Below, piece by piece: positions 51,309 through 63,059 of a DNA stretch of 64,000 nucleotides; the stretch's first letter is position 1, and each line of letters begins with the position of its first letter. Location of the stretch: contig NZ_CP036276.1 in NCBI RefSeq assembly GCF_007747995.1, forward strand, positions 1,479,001-1,543,000, read 5' to 3'. The translations under genes and the position numbers were made by a program. Source of the stretch: Symmachiella dynata. Its GTDB lineage: Bacteria; Planctomycetota; Planctomycetia; Planctomycetales; Planctomycetaceae. The notes below the pieces were generated by a model, which was given only the letters and a program-made list of their open reading frames with translations, had not been told where the DNA came from and searched no databases.

Positions 51309-52079
51309 TTATTGAAGATTGTTGGTTTGTTGTTGGCTCGAAGCCGATTCGTTTGACGTTTGGCCGTTCAAGTCGCCGAAGCATTTGGCAAACCGAACGC
51401 CGAAGCCAAGTGTCCGCTGGAGGTTGGGATCCCTGAGGGCTTTCAAGAGACCGAGCATGCCGATTCGTTCGGGCGTTCGTTGTTCGCAGGTCTCTCGTTG
51501 GCAGTTGGCTAGCGATGTCGCCGCTTGCCCGATGACTTGCAGTGCGTGAGGATCGAGAACGTCGGACCGCAGCAGAAAGCCGAGCCGCTCGAGTTCGTCT
51601 TCGCTAACGCGGCAACCAAGCCACAGCAAAGCGTGCAGCCCCTGTGAGATACTTTTTTCGAGCTCGACTCCATGTGACTTGAAATTGGCTGCGTATTCGT
51701 CGACGACATCGGTTGCAATCGCTAAGAGATTGGGAACTTCGTCCAGCAAGCGGCTTGCTTCTTCTAGTTGCGGAAGCCGATCGACCAGTCTGCTGAGCGC
51801 CGACACGGCTTCAGGTTCTGTGACTATCAGAAAGAGACTGACCAATGAACCGAGCCGCTCCTCGACGGACGTACCAGACTGATTGATTTTCTCGCACTGT
51901 TCGTCGATGACATCGGCTACTGTTGCAAGCAGACCATCCGCCGCGTTGTTAGCTTGCACCGCTCGTTCGACAAGATGCTCAATGTCTTTTGCGCGGCCAA
52001 CCAGCCGGGCGAGTGATTCCGCTGTCTCTGCATCATCCAGTTGTTCGCGAATTGGCATGTGTGCGGTATTGATTTCCAT
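51309..52079 (-). CDS. DUF1641 protein, SQR-associated
   Basis: A 256-residue helical protein with the DUF1641 C-terminal motif (GMLGLLKALRDPNLQRTLGFGVRFAKCFG). DUF1641 genes are often next to SQR or formate dehydrogenase genes. The rest is helical with Cys residues near 155 and 193. It may anchor SQR to the membrane or transfer electrons; there is no membrane helix. Nine bases before sqr, so it is coupled. Confidence 0.85.
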   Translation of the reverse strand: MEINTAHMPIREQLDDAETAESLARLVGRAKDIEHLVERAVQANNAADGLLATVADVIDEQCEKINQSGTSVEERLGSLVSLFLIVTEPEAVSALSRLVDRLPQLEEASRLLDEVPNLLAIATDVVDEYAANFKSHGVELEKSISQGLHALLWLGCRVSEDELERLGFLLRSDVLDPHALQVIGQAATSLANCQRETCEQRTPERIGMLGLLKALRDPNLQRTLGFGVRFAKCFGDLNGQTSNESASSQQQTNNLQ

Positions 52080-52294
52080 GTCTTAATTCCTCTTTGTTTT
52101 ACGAGGGCGAACGTCGTTGGAGTGATCTGCATCCGCGTCCCCTGATTGAGACGTTGTGGATTGTTCTGTGGTTGGCTGGTCCGACCGGACTTTGCAGGAA
52201 CCGGACAGTCACGTCTTGACGCCGAAGCGAGGCAATACCCACGCGTTCAGCACGAACAACGCAACCTAGACAGCAAGTGGCAGTAGCAATTCTT

Positions 52295-52963
52295 TCATTG
52301 CGAATCCAAACCATCATTCAATGTCTTCATACAGAAGTACCAATCAGCGCATTCATACGAAGCGTCCGCCATTCGTTCGCGAGCTGTTTCAGATGTCTTG
52401 GGCGGGGGGACAATGACTTTTCCTCCAGGCATCCAGCTTTCCGGCGTGGCGACCTTGTGCTGATCGCTTGTCTGCATAGCCTTGAGCAATCTCAAAAACT
52501 CTTGAACGCTTCTCCCATTGCTCATCGGGTAGAAGACCATCGCCCGAAGCACAGCGTCGGGGTCGATAAAAAACGTTGTCCGCACGGCTGACGTATCGCT
52601 GGCTCCCGGTTGGATCATGCCGTACGCATGGGCCACGTTCATCGAGAGGTCATCGATGATCGGAAACGGAATGTCCACGCCAAACTTTTCTTTGATATTC
52701 GCCACCCAAGCGAGGTGCGAAAAGACGCTGTCAATTGAAAGCCCCAACAGGTCGCAATCCAAAGCCTGAAAGTCACTGTGAGCCTTCGCAAATGCGATGA
52801 ACTCCGTTGTACAGACCGGCGTGAAATCAGACGGGTGCGAGAACAGAATCAGCCACCGCCCCTTGTAGTCGGCAAGTTTCTTCGGCCCGTGGGTCGTCAT
52901 CGTGTCGAAATCCGGCGCTGGCTCGTTCAATCGCGGCATTGGTACGTGGTTTTCATTTGTCAT
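52295..52963 (-). CDS. Peroxiredoxin, Prx6/1-Cys type
   Basis: A 222-residue peroxiredoxin. The peroxidatic Cys is in HPSDFTPVCTTEF. The remainder (LGLSIDSVFSHLAWVANI; FPIIDDLSMNVAHAYGM; RTTFFIDPDAVLRAM; ESWMPGGKVIVPP) matches the Prx6 subfamily of archaea and bacteria. It reduces peroxides or perhaps persulfides. It has a second Cys pair near the C-terminus (YECADWYFC), as in the archaeal type. It is next to the persulfide dioxygenase gene. Confidence 0.92.
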   Translation of the reverse strand: MTNENHVPMPRLNEPAPDFDTMTTHGPKKLADYKGRWLILFSHPSDFTPVCTTEFIAFAKAHSDFQALDCDLLGLSIDSVFSHLAWVANIKEKFGVDIPFPIIDDLSMNVAHAYGMIQPGASDTSAVRTTFFIDPDAVLRAMVFYPMSNGRSVQEFLRLLKAMQTSDQHKVATPESWMPGGKVIVPPPKTSETARERMADASYECADWYFCMKTLNDGLDSQ

Positions 52964-53005
52964 GACATCTTACTTTCAGAGTTGTGATTGTTTGATGTGT
53001 AAGAG

Positions 53006-54451
53006 TCACGGGCACGTTGCGGTCCGTGACATTTCATCGCATGCCGGAGCTGCATGTCCTACGGGCAAACCCGCGCCAGCCCATGCTCCGAATCCGCCGG
53101 TCATGTTGATGACTTCCAGCCCATTGGCTTGCAGAATGCTGGCTGCGATCGCGGAACGCTCCCCAGTCTGACACTGCGTCACGATTGGCTTGCCGCTCTC
53201 AATGTCAGATAGATTGTCGGGGAGACGACCGAGGAACCGATGGTCGGCTCTGGCGATGTGGCCAGACTTCCATTCCTCCTCCGAACGCACGTCAATCAGT
53301 TTCACGTCGCCTGACTCGATGCGTGGAGCCAATTCTTTTGGTGTGCGGATTGAATACTCCTCGGTAGCCAAACCGCTTGACCGGACTTCGCTCGGGTGAA
53401 AAGCACCCTCGATCTGCTCCACGCCGATCTTGTGCAGTACCCGTGCCGCTTCCTCCAGCTGATCTGGATGGCAGATCAAGTAGGTCGGCCGGTCATAGTC
53501 AACCAGCCAACCCGCCCATGTCGCGAGCATCTCCAGTGGAATGTTGATCGTGCCAGGCACGTGGCCTTTGGCGAATTCAGACGATGGAGTCAGGTCGACG
53601 ACCGTTCCGGATTTGACAGCATTCTCTAAACCAGCGACATCGAGCACTGAGTGATGATGTCCCGCACCAAGAATCCGCGGGCCTTCTTTGTTGACTCGCT
53701 TCATCACCGCGAAGTACTTCGGTGCTTCCGGCTGGTCGGACAGGATATACTGCACGAACTCTTCTTCGTCGGTGAACTGCAAAGCCGGGTTGAACAGTTT
53801 TTCGTAGCCGACTGTCGAAGACGGAACGGCACCGAGTCCCTTGCCACAGGCACTGCCCGCACCGTGTGCAGGCCAGACTTGCAGGAAGTCTGGAAGCTGT
53901 TTGAATTTCTCTGCGGAGTGGAACAGGTCACGAGCGCCCGGTTCGGCCGTGTTCGCCAGCCCCGCTGCTTCTTCGAGCAAGTCAGGACGTCCGATCGAAC
54001 CGACGAACACAAAGTCGCCGGTGAAAATGCCCATCGGCTTATCGGCATGTCCGCCTTGGTCAGTCAGCAGGAACGAGATGCTTTCCGGCGTGTGCCCCGG
54101 AGTGTGTAGCACATCGAACCTGATGTTTCCGATCATGAACGAGTCACCATCCTTCAGCAGTTGATGCTCGTGCTGGTCGGCGAAATGATACTTCCACTCC
54201 GCCGGTCCTTCGTCCGACACGTAGAGCTTCGCCCCGATGCGATCCGCCAGTTCACGGGCTCCCGACACGTAATCGGCGTGGATGTGAGTCTCCGCGATCG
54301 CGATCAGTTTCACATCCTCGCGATCGGCCATTTCGAGGTACTGCTCGATGTCCCGACCGGGGTCGACGACCACGGCAACCTTCGCCTTCTGGCATCCGAC
54401 CATGTAGGAAGCATGAGCGAGAGCTTTGTCGTAGAAGTACTTGAGCAACAT
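53006..54451 (-). CDS. Persulfide dioxygenase-rhodanese fusion
   Basis: A 481-residue protein with an N-terminal metallo-beta-lactamase domain of the ETHE1 type (residues about 1-240) and two rhodanese domains (about 265-360 and 370-470). Metal motif: ETHIHADYVSG, H in LHTPGHTPES and D in IFTGDFVFVGSIGRPDL. The usual HxHxDH has Tyr for the last His here. The second rhodanese has the active loop CQTGERS; the first has CHPDQ and is probably inactive. It would oxidise glutathione-type persulfide to sulfite and move sulfane sulfur. It follows the TauE fragment by four bases. Confidence 0.92.
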   Translation of the reverse strand: MLLKYFYDKALAHASYMVGCQKAKVAVVVDPGRDIEQYLEMADREDVKLIAIAETHIHADYVSGARELADRIGAKLYVSDEGPAEWKYHFADQHEHQLLKDGDSFMIGNIRFDVLHTPGHTPESISFLLTDQGGHADKPMGIFTGDFVFVGSIGRPDLLEEAAGLANTAEPGARDLFHSAEKFKQLPDFLQVWPAHGAGSACGKGLGAVPSSTVGYEKLFNPALQFTDEEEFVQYILSDQPEAPKYFAVMKRVNKEGPRILGAGHHHSVLDVAGLENAVKSGTVVDLTPSSEFAKGHVPGTINIPLEMLATWAGWLVDYDRPTYLICHPDQLEEAARVLHKIGVEQIEGAFHPSEVRSSGLATEEYSIRTPKELAPRIESGDVKLIDVRSEEEWKSGHIARADHRFLGRLPDNLSDIESGKPIVTQCQTGERSAIAASILQANGLEVINMTGGFGAWAGAGLPVGHAAPACDEMSRTATCP

Positions 54452-54455
54452 GGGA

Positions 54456-54701
54456 CTATCTCCTTTTCAGTTGGGTTTCGAGCGATGCTTCGCTCGTGAG
54501 TGGTTGAACTTCCGTGGTGGACGATGCGGAGGCTTGACCGGACGAAGGTAGAGCCAGCTTGCTGCCTTCATTCACGATCACGAATCCACCCAGCAGAATC
54601 AGGAACACTGCAAAGACTCTCTTGAACAATTGCTGATTCATGCGTGCGTTGACCGACTTGCCGATCAAGTTGCCCACCACGCCGATCAGCACGACGATCA
54701 T
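54456..54701 (-). pseudogene. Truncated TauE/SafE sulfite exporter, C-terminal piece
   Basis: The 81-codon frame matches only the end of TauE/SafE proteins: NLIGKSVNARMNQQLFKRVF and AVFLILLGGFVIVNEG. Full-length family members have about 250 residues with eight helices; here only one or two helices remain. The missing part and the end of the rhodanese gene upstream were probably lost in one deletion. An ATG at 54701 may still be used. Confidence 0.7.
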
Positions 54702-54749
54702 TTTTATTCAAACCTGACTTGGCTTTTTTTGTTTCAGTTCGCATTCACT

Positions 54750-54902
54750 TCACGGAGCGAGCGAGTCCAAAGGAATGTTACGGGCTACAACCGCACGCAC
54801 TTCGCGAAACTCAAGCGACGTGCGAACGTCGATGATGTCGACGTTTCCCTGCCCGTCGCGCTCCGCAAGCTGTCCGACTGAAATCGTTTGTAGTTGACTC
54901 AT
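54750..54902 (-). pseudogene. Truncated rhodanese, N-terminal piece
   Basis: From ATG 54902 the frame encodes 50 residues: a typical rhodanese start (QTISVGQLAER, VDIIDVRTSLEFREVRAV) and then stops at TGA 54750 before the active-site Cys. The remaining 60 or so residues are missing. Together with the TauE piece that follows 48 bases later, this looks like a deletion scar. Confidence 0.7.
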
Positions 54903-54986
54903 TTCTATTTACCTCGAATATTCGTAACCTCGTAACCTTGCGATGTGTGTGGGCAAAAAAAGGGAGAGAATTGACGCTGCTTTGCG

Positions 54987-55316
54987 TTACACATCCGACA
55001 AAAACCGCCCCTCAATACAGTCCATAATGTTCTGCAGATGCAGTTCGGCCACCTGATAATAAACCCGTCGACCTTCCCGCTCGCTGGTGAAAAACCCACA
55101 CCGCTGCATCAATCGCAGGTGTTCCGAAGCCACGTTGTTCGGCACCCCACAGTCTTCGGCCAATTCACCAACCGTGTACCGTCCATGCAGCAACAGCTGC
55201 ACCATCCTGAGCCGCACCGGATGCGCCAGCGTCTTCAGACACTCCGCCGCCTCAGCAAACGCCGCCGGATCACCGAGCGGTTTGGTTTTAGAATGGGACT
55301 TCTTTTTTGTGGTCAC
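54987..55316 (-). CDS. ArsR-family repressor of the sulfur operon
   Basis: A 109-residue winged-helix protein. The HTH is at about residues 48-75 (TVGELAEDCGVPNNVASEHLRLM), followed by the wing (FFTSEREGRRVYYQVAE). Four Cys (about 27, 56, 73 and 100) are present, and the sulfide-sensing BigR/SqrR members use two Cys as a persulfide switch. It starts at GTG 55316 with an AGGAGG ribosome site. It is at the head of the operon with SQR and persulfide dioxygenase, so it likely represses these until sulfide appears. The Cys pairing is inferred. Confidence 0.88.
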   Translation of the reverse strand: MTTKKKSHSKTKPLGDPAAFAEAAECLKTLAHPVRLRMVQLLLHGRYTVGELAEDCGVPNNVASEHLRLMQRCGFFTSEREGRRVYYQVAELHLQNIMDCIEGRFLSDV

Positions 55317-55749: not shown

Positions 55750-56925
55750 TTAGTTGCTCAGGTCGAGGCATTTCAATTGGTTTTCGCTGCGAATAAAAAG
55801 TTTTGTGCCCACCAATGCCGGGTGGGAATACGGGGGGACCTTATCCTCGAATAGCTTCACCCGCGAGATAATTCGCGGTTTGTCGGCGAGAGGGTCAAGC
55901 AGCAGCAACTCTCCGTCGCCAATGACCAGCAGACGGTCGCTGGAAGCGATGATCACGCCGTGTTTCGACAAGGCCGCGTCACGAAGCCTCCAGATTCTCT
56001 CCAGCTTGCCATTCGCGTTGAGACACCACAAAACATAATGCACGCAGAACAATCGATCACCGACAACGACCGGTGAGCTGGTGTCGGGATTCAGTTGTGC
56101 ATTCTCCGCAACCGGCTTCGGGTCGATCTCGCCGTTGTCCTTGAATCGATACAGGCGTGTTCCGTTGTTCTCGGTACTCACCAGTAGTTGTCCGTCCACG
56201 TTGATCGGCGTGGGAACGTTGAAATCGTTCTCGTGTGGCGGCGTCAAAGTCCAAAGTCGCTTGCCGGTTTTCGGGTCCCAACCGCCGAGCGAATCGGTAT
56301 CGTGTCCGACGATCTGCAGTTTTCCACCGAATCGGCCGGCGATCAACGAACCATAACCGCAGGCTTTACCCGGTGATTTCCACAGCACCTGCCCGGTCTT
56401 TGGATTCAAGGCGACGAGCGACGCGTTCGCCGCACCGGGATTGATGATGAGTTTGCCGTCAACCAGCAAAGGGGACCCGCAATAGCCCCACGGCATTTCC
56501 GCCGTCGCGACGAATGCTTTGCGGACGTTGGTTTTCCACTGCACTTCGCCGCTGAGAAGATCCACGGAATGCAGATCGCCCAAGGCACCGAACAGGAACA
56601 CCAGGTCTCCATAAATTAGCGGCGTTGTCCGCGGTGAGATTCCGTAGTCGAGTTCTCCTTCTGCTGCGTATTCAAGTTCCCAGAGCTTCAACCCGGCGAG
56701 GGTATCGTAACATTGGAAGAGGTCTTTTCGGTCATCGAGACTACGACTTCCGAAGATCACGAATGATTCCGTTGCGGCGATCCCCCCGAGAGCGGGTTGA
56801 GCAAGCTTGATTTCCCAAGACACAGTCGGTTGAGCGGCGAGTTGCTGGGGCAATTGAGGATAACGGCCATCCCGATGTGGCCCCCGCCAACCATTCCAGT
56901 CAGGCGTCTTCGATTCGGCGGCTAC
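55750..56925 (-). CDS. PQQ-type beta-propeller protein, probably read by -1 frameshift from phnD-like gene
   Basis: The frame encodes about 391 residues of a PQQ/BamB-like beta-propeller with repeated VALNPKTGQVLWKS-type blade motifs (also LLSGEVQWKT; DPKTGKRLWTL). It has no signal peptide. The first blade begins with DWNGWRGPHRDG, a classical opening, but no ATG, GTG or TTG lies upstream of it in frame; the only candidate, TTG 56853, would delete that blade. The upstream PhnD-like gene ends in A AAA AAG followed by TAG, and a -1 shift puts ribosomes exactly in this frame. I therefore give the coordinates from the shift point. If the shift does not happen, a shorter protein from 56853 is possible. 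Confidence 0.8.
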   Translation of the reverse strand, partial: VAAESKTPDWNGWRGPHRDGRYPQLPQQLAAQPTVSWEIKLAQPALGGIAATESFVIFGSRSLDDRKDLFQCYDTLAGLKLWELEYAAEGELDYGISPRTTPLIYGDLVFLFGALGDLHSVDLLSGEVQWKTNVRKAFVATAEMPWGYCGSPLLVDGKLIINPGAANASLVALNPKTGQVLWKSPGKACGYGSLIAGRFGGKLQIVGHDTDSLGGWDPKTGKRLWTLTPPHENDFNVPTPINVDGQLLVSTENNGTRLYRFKDNGEIDPKPVAENAQLNPDTSSPVVVGDRLFCVHYVLWCLNANGKLERIWRLRDAALSKHGVIIASSDRLLVIGDGELLLLDPLADKPRIISRVKLFEDKVPPYSHPALVGTKLFIRSENQLKCLDLSN

Positions 56926-57806
56926 TTTTTTTTTGCCGAAGCCGTTGACGTCTTCTCTTCAGCGGGTTCAATCGGTACAAAGCCGATCAATGTCTCGATC
57001 GCCTCGCAGATTTGGCGGTGATCGCCAACTGCGAGCAGTGCTTTTTGAATGCGTTCCCGCCGGGGCGCATCGACCGTGTTCGTCGTAAATGCTGTGACAA
57101 ACGGGACAGGTTTGGTCTTGCCGACCACTTGCAGATCTCCTTTCTTGATCGTGCCACATCCTTCCAGCAGCGGAGCGGCATAACTTGAGATGACGGCTGC
57201 GATGCGGGTCTTCTTATTGGCAGCCAACTCGACGACTTTCGCTGCCCCATCACTGCAGGATTGATCGATCTCCAGCTTGGGGGGAATAGCGACCTTCGCT
57301 TTTTTCAGCAACGTCATCGCTGCCGCGTGTTTTTCGTCGCATTCTTTCGGGCCGAAGAGAATGCGATAACCGGACAGGTCGGCGACTTTCTTGGCCGGGT
57401 CGCTGCTTGCAACGACAACCAGTCCATTTTGCGTCGTCAAACCGTCTTTGTCAGTCAACCTTGCAACCGCTGTCACTGTGAATTTGTGTTCAGCGGCATC
57501 AAAACGGATGACCGAGTCCTTACCGATAATCACATCTGCTTGGCCTTTGGCATCCCCCTTGAGGGCCGTGCCCAGCGCATCGGCAAACACAAGATTCACG
57601 CGCTCACCGAGTTCCTTTTCCAGAAATTTAGCCAGGACGTTGTAGTCCCGTTGCGCATATCCTTCCACGCAGGGACAGGACAGCGGTTTCGCCAGTGGGT
57701 CCATCACGATGACCGTCAGCCCATCATCACTGGCTAAGACGACATTGTCAGCCAACCCGAGCACTGCAATCATCAGACAGAATACGAGTAACGAAATTCT
57801 TTTCAT
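56922..57806 (-). CDS. PhnD-like periplasmic binding protein
   Basis: A 294-residue protein with a signal peptide (SLLVFCLMIAVLGLADNVVLA) and a two-lobe binding fold of the phosphonate/phosphite PhnD family (VIVMDPLAKPLSCPCVEGYA; ADVIIGKDSVIRF; LSGYRILFGPKECDEKHAA). The CPC near the ligand part and further Cys residues are unusual for PhnD. No transporter genes are nearby. The last codons are GCA AAA AAA AAG TAG, a -1 slip site. It lies between the NHL gene and the propeller gene on the same strand; the propeller is probably its C-terminal extension. The ligand is unknown, possibly a sulfur or phosphorus oxyanion. Confidence 0.82.
   Translation of the reverse strand: MKRISLLVFCLMIAVLGLADNVVLASDDGLTVIVMDPLAKPLSCPCVEGYAQRDYNVLAKFLEKELGERVNLVFADALGTALKGDAKGQADVIIGKDSVIRFDAAEHKFTVTAVARLTDKDGLTTQNGLVVVASSDPAKKVADLSGYRILFGPKECDEKHAAAMTLLKKAKVAIPPKLEIDQSCSDGAAKVVELAANKKTRIAAVISSYAAPLLEGCGTIKKGDLQVVGKTKPVPFVTAFTTNTVDAPRRERIQKALLAVGDHRQICEAIETLIGFVPIEPAEEKTSTASAKKK
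56925..56931 (-). promoter_or_regulatory. Putative -1 frameshift (slippery) site A AAA AAG
   Basis: Inside a run of nine A (56926-56934), with A AAA AAG in phase with the PhnD-like frame and TAG directly after it. It is the same heptamer as in E. coli dnaX. A purine-rich stretch GAAGAGAAG lies about 18 bases upstream and could act as an internal SD-like stimulator. A weak CGCC/GGCG stem follows. Transcriptional slippage on A9 is an alternative. Confidence 0.6.
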
Positions 57807-57860: not shown

Positions 57861-59108
57861 TTAGCGGGTCGCCGTTTTTCCTTCTACATCTGTTGGTTTA
57901 GTTTGCATCACGATAATGTGGTTCCGCGTGATGTCGAGCATATAGATACGATCAGTATCCTGCGATACAGCAATGGAGACTTTCTTACAGCCGGGGACGA
58001 GTTTCACATCGCCGACGTAGTCGATCAATTTCCCTTTGGAATCAAACCGTTTGATGCGGCCGCTGCTTGATTCCGCCGTATAGACATCACCGTTTTTGCC
58101 GAAGCAGAGATTCATTGGGTTGCAGCAACTGCTGAAACCTTCCACTCCTTTACGGTCACCTTTGCCCCAATGGAGCTGTTCTTTTCCGTCCGTATCGTAG
58201 CACACCACTCGGTGGCGGGAATTTTCAGCGACGTAGATCCCATTTTTGTCCGCCTGTACATCCATCTGCCCACAACAGCCGGACAACCCGGTCACGATCT
58301 GCTCGGCATTTTTGAATTTCAGATCGGTCCGCCAGATCGCATAGCCATGACCTTTGAGGGCACGTGTCGCGACGAAGATATTGTTACCGTCCGAACTAAT
58401 AGACGAAACCCCTGTTTTGTACTTAATCATCCTGACCACTTGCTGGTCGATCTCCTCCTCGGACAGTTTGGGTTGCTCGGAGATCTGATCTCGGGCTTCT
58501 TTTAATGTTTTCAACATGCGTCCAAAGGCTTTCAGCCGACGTTTATCGATCTCGGTTGGCTCTTTCTTCTTTTTTAGATCTGCCACGCGTGTCTCGTAAT
58601 TCTCGATCGCTGAATCGTAGTTCACACCTCGCGAATTGAGTTGTTCTATCACCTCTTTACGAACGACATCGGCGTTGGACTTCAAGTCTTTGTAATGCGG
58701 CGCAGCCGCTTCCTGTATTAATTTGCCGGTGGTTGAATAACGAAACAAACGTCCGTCGCCAGCAACAAGCACGGTGCCATCCGGAGCGACATTGATCGCT
58801 TCTGGATCAACCGGCACCTTCCAGTCGCGCAAGTGATTGCCCTCAGCATCAAATGTGCGGATTACGCCGGTGCCGTTCCCCTCCTTATCCGAGCCGGTAT
58901 TGCACCCGGCAAGAATATCGCCGTCACCGGTCAGACAGAATGTGTTCAGCTTAAAGCCTGCCTTGTCCTCGGTCACTTTGATGAGCTTGACCTGCTCATG
59001 CGTAGATTTTTCTGAGATGTCCGCTTCACGTTCTGGCAGGCTAAGTTCAGCCTTGAGGGATAGCGGCGAGAGCAGTGACAACATGACGATCAAACCAAGC
59101 GCTTTCAT
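57861..59108 (-). CDS. Exported NHL-repeat beta-propeller protein
   Basis: A 415-residue protein with a signal peptide (LGLIVMLSLLSPLSLKA) and a six-bladed NHL propeller (GEGN-, VDPEAINVAPDGTVLVAG, MDVQADKNGIYVAENSRHRVVCYD, MNLCFGKNGDVYTAESSSGRIKRFD). A coiled-coil insert of about 90 residues (residues 165-255, with KKKKEPTEIDKRRLKAFGR) splits the propeller. Two CC motifs (SGCCGQ, SSCCNP) at equivalent blade positions may hold a metal or cofactor. The ATG 59108 is preferred over 59186. It is the first gene of the NHL-PhnD-propeller unit. Confidence 0.85.
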   Translation of the reverse strand: MKALGLIVMLSLLSPLSLKAELSLPEREADISEKSTHEQVKLIKVTEDKAGFKLNTFCLTGDGDILAGCNTGSDKEGNGTGVIRTFDAEGNHLRDWKVPVDPEAINVAPDGTVLVAGDGRLFRYSTTGKLIQEAAAPHYKDLKSNADVVRKEVIEQLNSRGVNYDSAIENYETRVADLKKKKEPTEIDKRRLKAFGRMLKTLKEARDQISEQPKLSEEEIDQQVVRMIKYKTGVSSISSDGNNIFVATRALKGHGYAIWRTDLKFKNAEQIVTGLSGCCGQMDVQADKNGIYVAENSRHRVVCYDTDGKEQLHWGKGDRKGVEGFSSCCNPMNLCFGKNGDVYTAESSSGRIKRFDSKGKLIDYVGDVKLVPGCKKVSIAVSQDTDRIYMLDITRNHIIVMQTKPTDVEGKTATR

Positions 59109-60102
59109 CGTGTCTCTCCTTTGATGAAATGGTGTAGAGAAGTGGAGCTGCTCAGGGAGTATGACGTTTTGTCTTCGCGAATCCAACAGGAATATTTGAA
59201 TATTTACTCCCCAAAGGGTTATTGATGTCGGCTCGCTGGGAAACTAGGCCATCATAGGGAGAATACCGAGACTCTTGAAATCCAATGAATATGATGCGCT
59301 ATTTGCGCCGTTTCTAAGTATATTGAAAGAAGTAGAAAATTATTTCCTGCTAATTGCATTTGCGCGCCGCCCGCATTTCATCGAAACGACAGAGTCAACG
59401 CGGTGATCGGCAGAGCTGAATGTTAACTATGCCGTAGAAGCAGCGATCCACAACATGCAAGCCTCTCTGGCGGGCGAGCATGTAGTGTACGGAAATCTAT
59501 GTCGGTAAGATCAACCGCCGCAAGTCTCTAAACCGGGGTTCGCCAATCAGTGTTATCAGATAGACAGCTTGAGGCGAATGCGTTCGAACGCGCCGAGACT
59601 GATGTTGATGACCAAGGACGAACCGTCATTTGAATTATTGGGTCAACTAATTATTGGGCGATGATTCGGTTCGCAACGGGCAACCGATTACCGGGTCGTG
59701 CACCAGTCACATCGACCTCTCGCCAATAAATCGCTATTCCAGACCCTGAAAACCCGGTGCGGCTGATTGGCGTAACAAGCCATCAATTCTGCGATAGAGT
59801 GCCAATTCTCCTCCGATAGGTTCATTTTCTCAAACTCAGGTAACTTGACTGGTGGTCCCCGCGAGAGAAAAGAAGTCCGGGGTTGCCTTTCCCTCAGACG
59901 AACATTTATCAAATGTCGTCGACGTCACTTCGCTCGGACCGCCAGTCGCTCAGTCTTTCGCCCAAAGCCAGCAATTGATCCGGACCAGCGCGTTCTATAG
60001 GCCATACGGCAGCAACGATCAATTTTTGATGCATTGAAGCCTCCGTTACACGATTGCGGAAAGCACTTAGTGTGCCTCAGGACCGTAGTAAGGCCGAGGT
60101 CG
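59109..60102. other. Gap of about 1 kb without a clear gene
   Basis: On the minus strand a short frame starts at ATG 60034 (HQKLIVAAVWPIERAGP) and after a stop continues in another phase at 59688-59912 (NLSEENWHSIAELMACYA). It could be one decayed gene with a frameshift; the family is not recognised. The rest shows nothing. The AT content is higher than in neighbouring genes. Confidence 0.45.
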
Positions 60103-62368: not shown

Positions 62369-63040
62369 TTGGCAGTCACTCTGCGGGCTCACATTGCTAC
62401 TAAATTGCCGAAGGCAGGGGTGTTCGAAATGCCACACAATACCGATCTGGCGCGTATGCTGCGGGCTGATTTGGAACAGGCTCGCGGGGCTTGGATCAAG
62501 GACGCGAAACGTCAGCCCAAAGAGTATATCCGTCGCGTACAGAGTGACTTTTTGGCTGCCAAGAATCACGAAGATGAAGTTTTGGACTTTCACGCACTAC
62601 GCCACACGTGCGGCGCCTGGTTGTCGTTGGCGGGCGTGCACCCCAAGGTTGTCCAGACCGTGATGCGGCATTCGACCATCACCCTGACGATGGACACCTA
62701 CGGACATTTATTCCCGGGCCAAGAAGCAGACGCCGTCGCTAGATTGCGCGGCGTCTGCAATGGCCCTCCACAGACGCTCAAAGCGACCGGGACTAATGAT
62801 GCGACACCAAACTCTCCAGAAAACGCGCAGCGCCAGGCGCAGCAATCGCGACGCGAAACGCGGCAACACGGTGCGATACAGTGCGACGAACCGAACACAA
62901 CACCAGCAAACAAGAAATCGCCCAAACCCAACAATGGTGTGGACTTAGGCGACGCTGTGCAACGCAAATCAACACCAGACAAAAATAGGGCCGGCAGGAC
63001 TCGAACCTGCAACCAACAAATTATGAGTTTGCTGCTCTAA
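62369..63040 (+). pseudogene. Truncated tyrosine recombinase (integrase), C-terminal catalytic part
   Basis: From TTG 62369 the frame encodes about 223 residues with HALRHT (His and second Arg), the VMRHSTITLTMDTYGH box and the nucleophile Tyr. The N-terminal SAM-like domain and the first catalytic Arg are absent, so it cannot be active. The tail is low in order and its last codons (RAGRTRTCNQQIMSLLL) read the attachment site and the tRNA 3' half on the opposite strand. This is the usual position of int next to attR. Its deletion joins it to the excisionase-like ORF. Confidence 0.8.
62964..63034. repeat. Attachment-site direct repeat, right copy
   Basis: Identical over 71 bases with 29070-29140. 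This copy continues at 63035 into the 5' part of the tRNA gene, so the tRNA is kept intact at this side. It also contains the end of the truncated integrase frame. Confidence 0.85.
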
Positions 63041-63059
63041 CCGATTGAGCTACGGCCCC
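62986..63059 (-). tRNA. tRNA with CAT anticodon (Met elongator or Ile2)
   Basis: A full cloverleaf of 74 bases: acceptor GGGGCCG with CGGCCCT (one G-U at the end), D-arm GCTC/GAGC, anticodon stem GCAAA/TTTGT with loop CTCATAA, T-arm GCAGG/CCTGC with TTCGAGT, discriminator A, no encoded CCA. No GGG/CCC anticodon stem, so not an initiator. Whether C34 is modified to lysidine (Ile) or not (Met) cannot be told. Its 3' half is duplicated at 29091-29140. Confidence 0.93.

Follow-up and report, generated by a model that had tools for sequence, protein, structure and literature searches.

A single gene of Symmachiella dynata would give rise to two exported proteins through slippage on about nine consecutive A's, a conserved run in the linker between its two domains. 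The gene lies in a stretch of 64,000 nucleotides of contig NZ_CP036276.1, called the window here. Templated reading would yield a PhnD-like binding protein that ends at a stop directly after the run. An extra A in the mRNA, or a step back by one on the part of the ribosome, would yield from the same start a 685-residue fusion of the PhnD-like part to a BamB/PQQ-like propeller. Judged from the sequences, it is highly probable that slippage takes place at one level or the other, RNA polymerase or ribosome. That one gene gives two products in this way with RNA polymerase as the likeliest slipping machine, by programmed transcriptional slippage as in Thermus dnaX, is a fairly probable reading and the one we prefer; -1 ribosomal slippage would be its main alternative or a helper. 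The arrangement in the window is as follows.

57861..59186, minus strand: NHL-repeat-like protein with a CCGQ motif, the upstream neighbour (Pfam NHL, E 5.8e-7)

56922..57806, minus strand: PhnD-like open reading frame, the short product, 294 aa (open reading frame and Pfam)

56926..56934, minus strand: slippery A9 run (sequence; A8-A10 in all 60 out-of-frame homologous loci)

56922..56924, minus strand: TAG closing the short product, right after the run-closing codon (sequence)

55750..56925, minus strand: -1 frame with a linker and a PQQ-like/BamB-like beta-propeller, 391 codons (translation, Pfam)

The PhnD-like frame does end GCA AAA AAA AAG TAG with nine A's, as an earlier note on this DNA had described, and the A AAA AAG heptamer is in phase within the run, again as claimed. 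The G that follows the run is position 56925 (minus strand). The -1 frame is open from 56958 and ends at TAA 55752-55750 (minus strand). Translation bears out the 391 codons after the run and the claim that no start codon precedes the WNGWRGP motif; the first ATG/GTG/TTG of this frame is a TTG at 56853, downstream of the motif. The TGA that closes the frame upstream is present, but at 56961-56959, two bases off the 56957-56959 given earlier. The 685 residues predicted for the fusion are recovered as 294 + 391.

The PhnD-like part matches Pfam PF12974 (Phosphonate-bd) with an E value of 6.9e-23 and 81.7 bits at a cut-off of 27, and carries a putative signal peptide at about residues 1-26 (by eye). 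With the PhnD equivalog NCBIfam TIGR03431 it stays far below the cut-off (23.5 versus 261.1 bits). It also matches 5jvb (E 4.7e-12) and PtxB 5o2j, and 17 sequences agree without exception in the cysteines C44, C46 and C217. The propeller part matches Pfam PF13360 (PQQ_2; E 2.8e-21) and stays below the cut-offs of the NCBIfam models for PQQ-dependent dehydrogenase or BamB, TIGR03075 (36.7 versus 480.05 bits) and TIGR03300 (38.7 versus 285.2 bits). An AlphaFold2 model of a one-frame fusion from Lacipirellula limnantheis (L159, the first row of alignment A2; mean pLDDT 83.5, pTM 0.60) has two folded domains and a disordered linker at 297-328, and BamB propellers rank first among its PDB matches, with tetrathionate hydrolase next. 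It is between these two domains, too, that the A run of the split genes is located.

Relatives of the PhnD-like protein were found in 30 of the 149 genomes searched, the own genome counted. Names for the loci come from a scan of named genome contigs and cover the best 80 of 139 relatives; planctomycetes are named for 78 of these, some of which we presume to belong to that group, and the other two are only "bacterium". Altogether, 110 loci were compared, of which 105 have both parts and 96 are distinct. Left out were five loci with one part missing, L017 and L020 without PhnD and L180, L187 and L193 without a propeller (for L187, 4 kb of sequence is available downstream), and nine duplicates with identical DNA near the PhnD end.

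The two parts are out of frame in 60 of the 96 distinct loci, and every one of these 60 has A8-A10 at the junction (49 A9, nine A8, two A10). The geometry is -1 in 58 and +1 in two, L010 and L165. In L145 and L197 the automatic frame call was +1 but the junction itself is -1, and they were counted as such; a second frame change lies within the propeller of both, downstream of a normal A9 junction, and may reflect decay or an assembly error. With a run of eight to ten A's in every out-of-frame locus compared, the junction is conserved and far from chance.

Both parts share one frame in the remaining 36 distinct loci, and so the fused homologues that the earlier note had suggested looking for do exist. 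Thirty-two of them have no run of at least seven A's, one has A7 and three have A9 or A10 (L138 A10, L167 A10, L194 A9). Removal of one A from any of these three would place a stop directly after the run, a mirror image of the usual state. The in-frame loci L164, L190 and L206 are cut by a contig end. One further in-frame locus (L021, genome G123) has a TAG between PhnD and propeller and no A run; no ATG/GTG/TTG was found between this TAG and the propeller match, and readthrough, an assembly error or loss are possible. In a PhnD tree of 95 of the 96 loci, one being too short, the split state requires nine changes (bootstrap 8-9), with L138 and L167, but not L194, nested among split relatives. 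Since many lineages have the plain fusion alone, the short form would be dispensable there, a point against the two-product reading.

Several features of the -1 loci argue that the ability to make both forms is maintained. The 0-frame stop is in the first (41 loci) or second (13 loci) codon after the run-closing codon in 54 of 58; further on in the short frame of the same 58 loci, stops make up 562 of 18035 codons (3.1%). An A ends the codon preceding the lysine block in 44 of the 56 loci in which this could be tested, compared with 7.2 expected from the same genes; as the loci are related to each other, the calculated P value cannot be read literally. The run thereby extends past the A AAA AAG heptamer. 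Very probably, slippage that yields PhnD alone as well as the PhnD-propeller fusion has been selected.

As to the machine that slips, the sequences point with moderate strength to RNA polymerase as the main agent, and the ribosome is the less probable of the two. The earlier note had proposed a -1 frameshift at A AAA AAG, the dnaX-type slippery site. A -1 programmed ribosomal frameshift at A AAA AAG or A AAA AAA, as in E. coli dnaX, is the main competitor, though we consider it rather unlikely. All 60 out-of-frame runs hold an in-phase heptamer A AAA AAN (AAG, AAA or AAC), and in 46 of them G is the third base of the run-closing codon. The direction is nearly uniform, with -1 in 58 of 60 loci, and a conserved direction of the frameshift points to the ribosome (PMC3711429); by this criterion the finding counts against polymerase slippage. 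Eight of the -1 loci have only A8, which is short for polymerase slippage, and most A8 loci have stable RNA downstream, as judged by folding energies only, with no shuffles. Overall, the RNA immediately downstream of the run has a low mean folding z of -0.7 to -1.0, compared with -0.67 to +0.16 in windows elsewhere; this slight stability is a weak signal of a conserved downstream stimulator.

On the other side, the length of nine A's is kept beyond the heptamer (the same 44 of 56 loci), and a Shine-Dalgarno-like tetramer (AGGA, GGAG or GAGG) is found 4-20 nt upstream of the run in just seven of 58 loci. Runs occur also in other phases and are also followed by C, and dnaX and two other genes have the same run length but not the same phase. 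Given the in-phase A AAA AAN in each of the runs, the varying phase is weak evidence at most against ribosomal slipping and was discarded as proof. The gene resembles E. coli dnaX in the in-phase A AAA AAG (PMC5009743) and differs from it in the mostly absent Shine-Dalgarno-like element, the weak downstream structure, the longer run, the second tRNA-Lys and the position of the stop (0 frame instead of -1 frame). A ribosomal slip of the dnaX type, in the form first proposed, is thus not supported.

The tRNA genes bear on the same question. Thermus, with two lysine tRNAs, uses RNA polymerase slippage in dnaX, whereas E. coli, with one, uses ribosomal slippage, and the two tRNAs were offered as a possible reason for polymerase slippage in Thermus dnaX (PMC5009743). 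The own genome has both tRNA-Lys(TTT) and tRNA-Lys(CTT), and the presence of the latter argues against the ribosome. Anticodon CTT was seen at all 30 best-matching places read, the own genome being one of them. A further 20 places gave CTT at 13, TTT at two, Asn at one, Trp at two and no tRNA at two. One complete genome with an A9 junction (G020) speaks against the polymerase reading, since the two places read there have tRNA-Lys(TTT) and tRNA-Asn and no CTT. In the own genome, tRNA genes form a dense array at C1:5857300-5865500, perhaps a mobile element; 17 were counted in the two stretches that were read (L093, L101), including a second, different tRNA-Lys(TTT).

Polymerase slippage, the preferred mechanism, need not be confined to one gene. 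On both strands of the own genome (one contig, 7.77 Mb) A9 occurs at 25 places, which belong to 22 separate runs, and two of these runs exceed nine A's. Markov chains predict 133-156 places when fitted only to the 64 kb window, and A9 is therefore rarer than expected. All 22 runs were sorted according to their open frames, and for 13 of them the translation was inspected. Three of them lie in the following genes.

C1:4969180-4969188, minus strand: A9 between a TPR/secretin-like protein and its split-off C-terminal part (L124; by eye)

C1:5642357-5642365, minus strand: A9 run in dnaX (L127; open frames, gene named by eye)

C1:1453029-1453037: A run at which an ABC-ATPase-like/GNAT-like pair is split, -1 (L114; by eye)

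The TPR/secretin-like protein has no Pfam match and was named by eye. Homologues are present in 111 of 119 genomes, own included, and the 30 best loci (L217-L246), all from the window's family, comprise 27 with both parts: 24 junctions are -1 with A9, one is -1 with A10, one +1 with A9 and one in frame with A9. In families f3-f5 and f7-f9 a single frame of about 1,240-1,620 codons contains most of the matches; in family f2 a long single frame is not the pattern. The ATPase/GNAT pair has a match in 39 of 99 genomes. Its 30 best loci (L351-L380) include 18 that are -1 with A9 and one that is -1 with A8, nine in frame, six of them without a run and three with A9/A10, one that is -1 without a run (L353) and one that lacks the first part. 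Among the 30 best dnaX loci (L247-L276; 97 genomes with a match) 19 have A9, nine A10 and two no run. A -1 stop follows within six codons at all 29 dnaX runs, and the phase of the run varies; by sequence, the A9/A10 pattern of dnaX here is like that in Thermus. The same four sites are present in G020, which has 23 runs. It is conceivable, though we would put it at slightly less than an even chance, that nine-A runs serve planctomycetes as a common fusion switch in several unrelated cellular genes (PhnD/propeller, TPR/secretin-like, ATPase/GNAT and dnaX), with RNA polymerase as its reader. In that case, one change in the slippage rate of the polymerase would alter the domain composition of all these genes jointly.

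Three further explanations do not involve slippage during expression. In DNA-level phase variation, the run would gain or lose an A by replication slippage and the fusion would be switched within the population. Long A runs are mutable, and the three one-frame loci with A9/A10, two of them nested among split relatives, speak for this reading, as do the similar run-bearing in-frame loci of the ATPase/GNAT pair (three of 30). However, one register dominates (A9 in 49 and -1 in 58 of 60 loci), and near-identical species agree in separate assemblies (L019 and L182, both A9). Nine A's are also short for a contingency locus, and we regard phase variation as very improbable.

Even less probable are two separate proteins, with the propeller translated by reinitiation from an unusual start codon. 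In its favour, the stop does directly precede the propeller frame, eight of the 58 -1 loci have a GTG or TTG ahead of the propeller, and in the ATPase/GNAT locus L353 a Shine-Dalgarno-like AGGAGG and an own ATG (by eye) indicate that the two members of such a pair can exist separately. However, the interval from the run to the propeller motif lacks ATG in all 58 -1 loci and ATG/GTG/TTG in 50; the motif was located in 57 of the 58, and in the remaining locus 12 codons were read. Propellers with their own start, which according to the earlier note would speak against a frameshift, were thus not seen in the loci examined. The window's propeller part has no signal peptide of its own (by eye, in the window only), and the propeller is fused in frame in relatives; a separate start was rejected as unlikely. 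Least probable of all is a sequencing error or a decayed gene: homopolymers are error-prone and a single genome would not decide, but the run and its register are found again in 60 distinct loci, with proteins that share only about 40-60% identity with the window's, and the domains are conserved on both sides of the run. On this recurrence in independent assemblies, sequencing error was rejected.

Slippage by RNA polymerase would give the gene several relatives among known systems. It shares with dnaX of Thermus thermophilus (A9, tau/gamma) the A9 run, the nearby stop and the two length variants (PMC1088944, PMC5009743), and with the organism the two lysine tRNAs in the genome (PMC5009743). 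In contrast to Thermus dnaX, the templated register here would give the short product and slippage the long one, and the genes are unrelated. In Shigella mxiE (PMC1088944) and spa13 (PMC5009743) an out-of-frame downstream part is likewise restored by homopolymer slippage, and the product of Citrobacter rodentium tssM is lengthened in this way (PMC4256274). Those are secretion-system genes, whereas here an envelope binding protein is concerned and the junction recurs in many planctomycete genomes. The GeneTack clusters of predicted programmed frameshifts (magnesium chelatase, DUF111 and others) are comparable in that junctions are conserved, some at poly-A, and fused homologues exist elsewhere; "PQQ" and "phosphonate" do not occur in the main text of that work (PMC3711429). 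Among the matches listed from the planctomycete and general slippage literature, mostly outside subscription journals, none dealt with this gene.

Read from start to stop, each of these genes falls into two, and so a secreted binding-propeller fusion would go unseen in many planctomycete genomes. If the polymerase does slip here, a bacterial group would use slippage routinely in several housekeeping and envelope genes, in contrast to cases that are isolated or tied to mobile elements. Relatives with split genes, with the mirror register and with a plain fusion offer a natural comparison by which the need for the short form could be assessed.

The gene neighbourhood gives a hint at function. 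Of 59 loci with sufficient flanking sequence, 56 have an open reading frame with the CCGQ motif upstream, and the NHL-like gene is probably in the same operon. Its product probably forms an extracytoplasmic binding or docking complex with the proteins described here. Elsewhere in the window, genes for an ArsR-type regulator, a beta-lactamase-rhodanese fusion, a peroxiredoxin and a DUF1641 protein follow in a row (51309-55316), in the manner of what we take to be a sulfide/persulfide detoxification operon. At 62369-63059 a tyrosine-recombinase-like open reading frame (by eye) overlaps a tRNA-Met gene of the opposite strand, an arrangement like that of an integration site.
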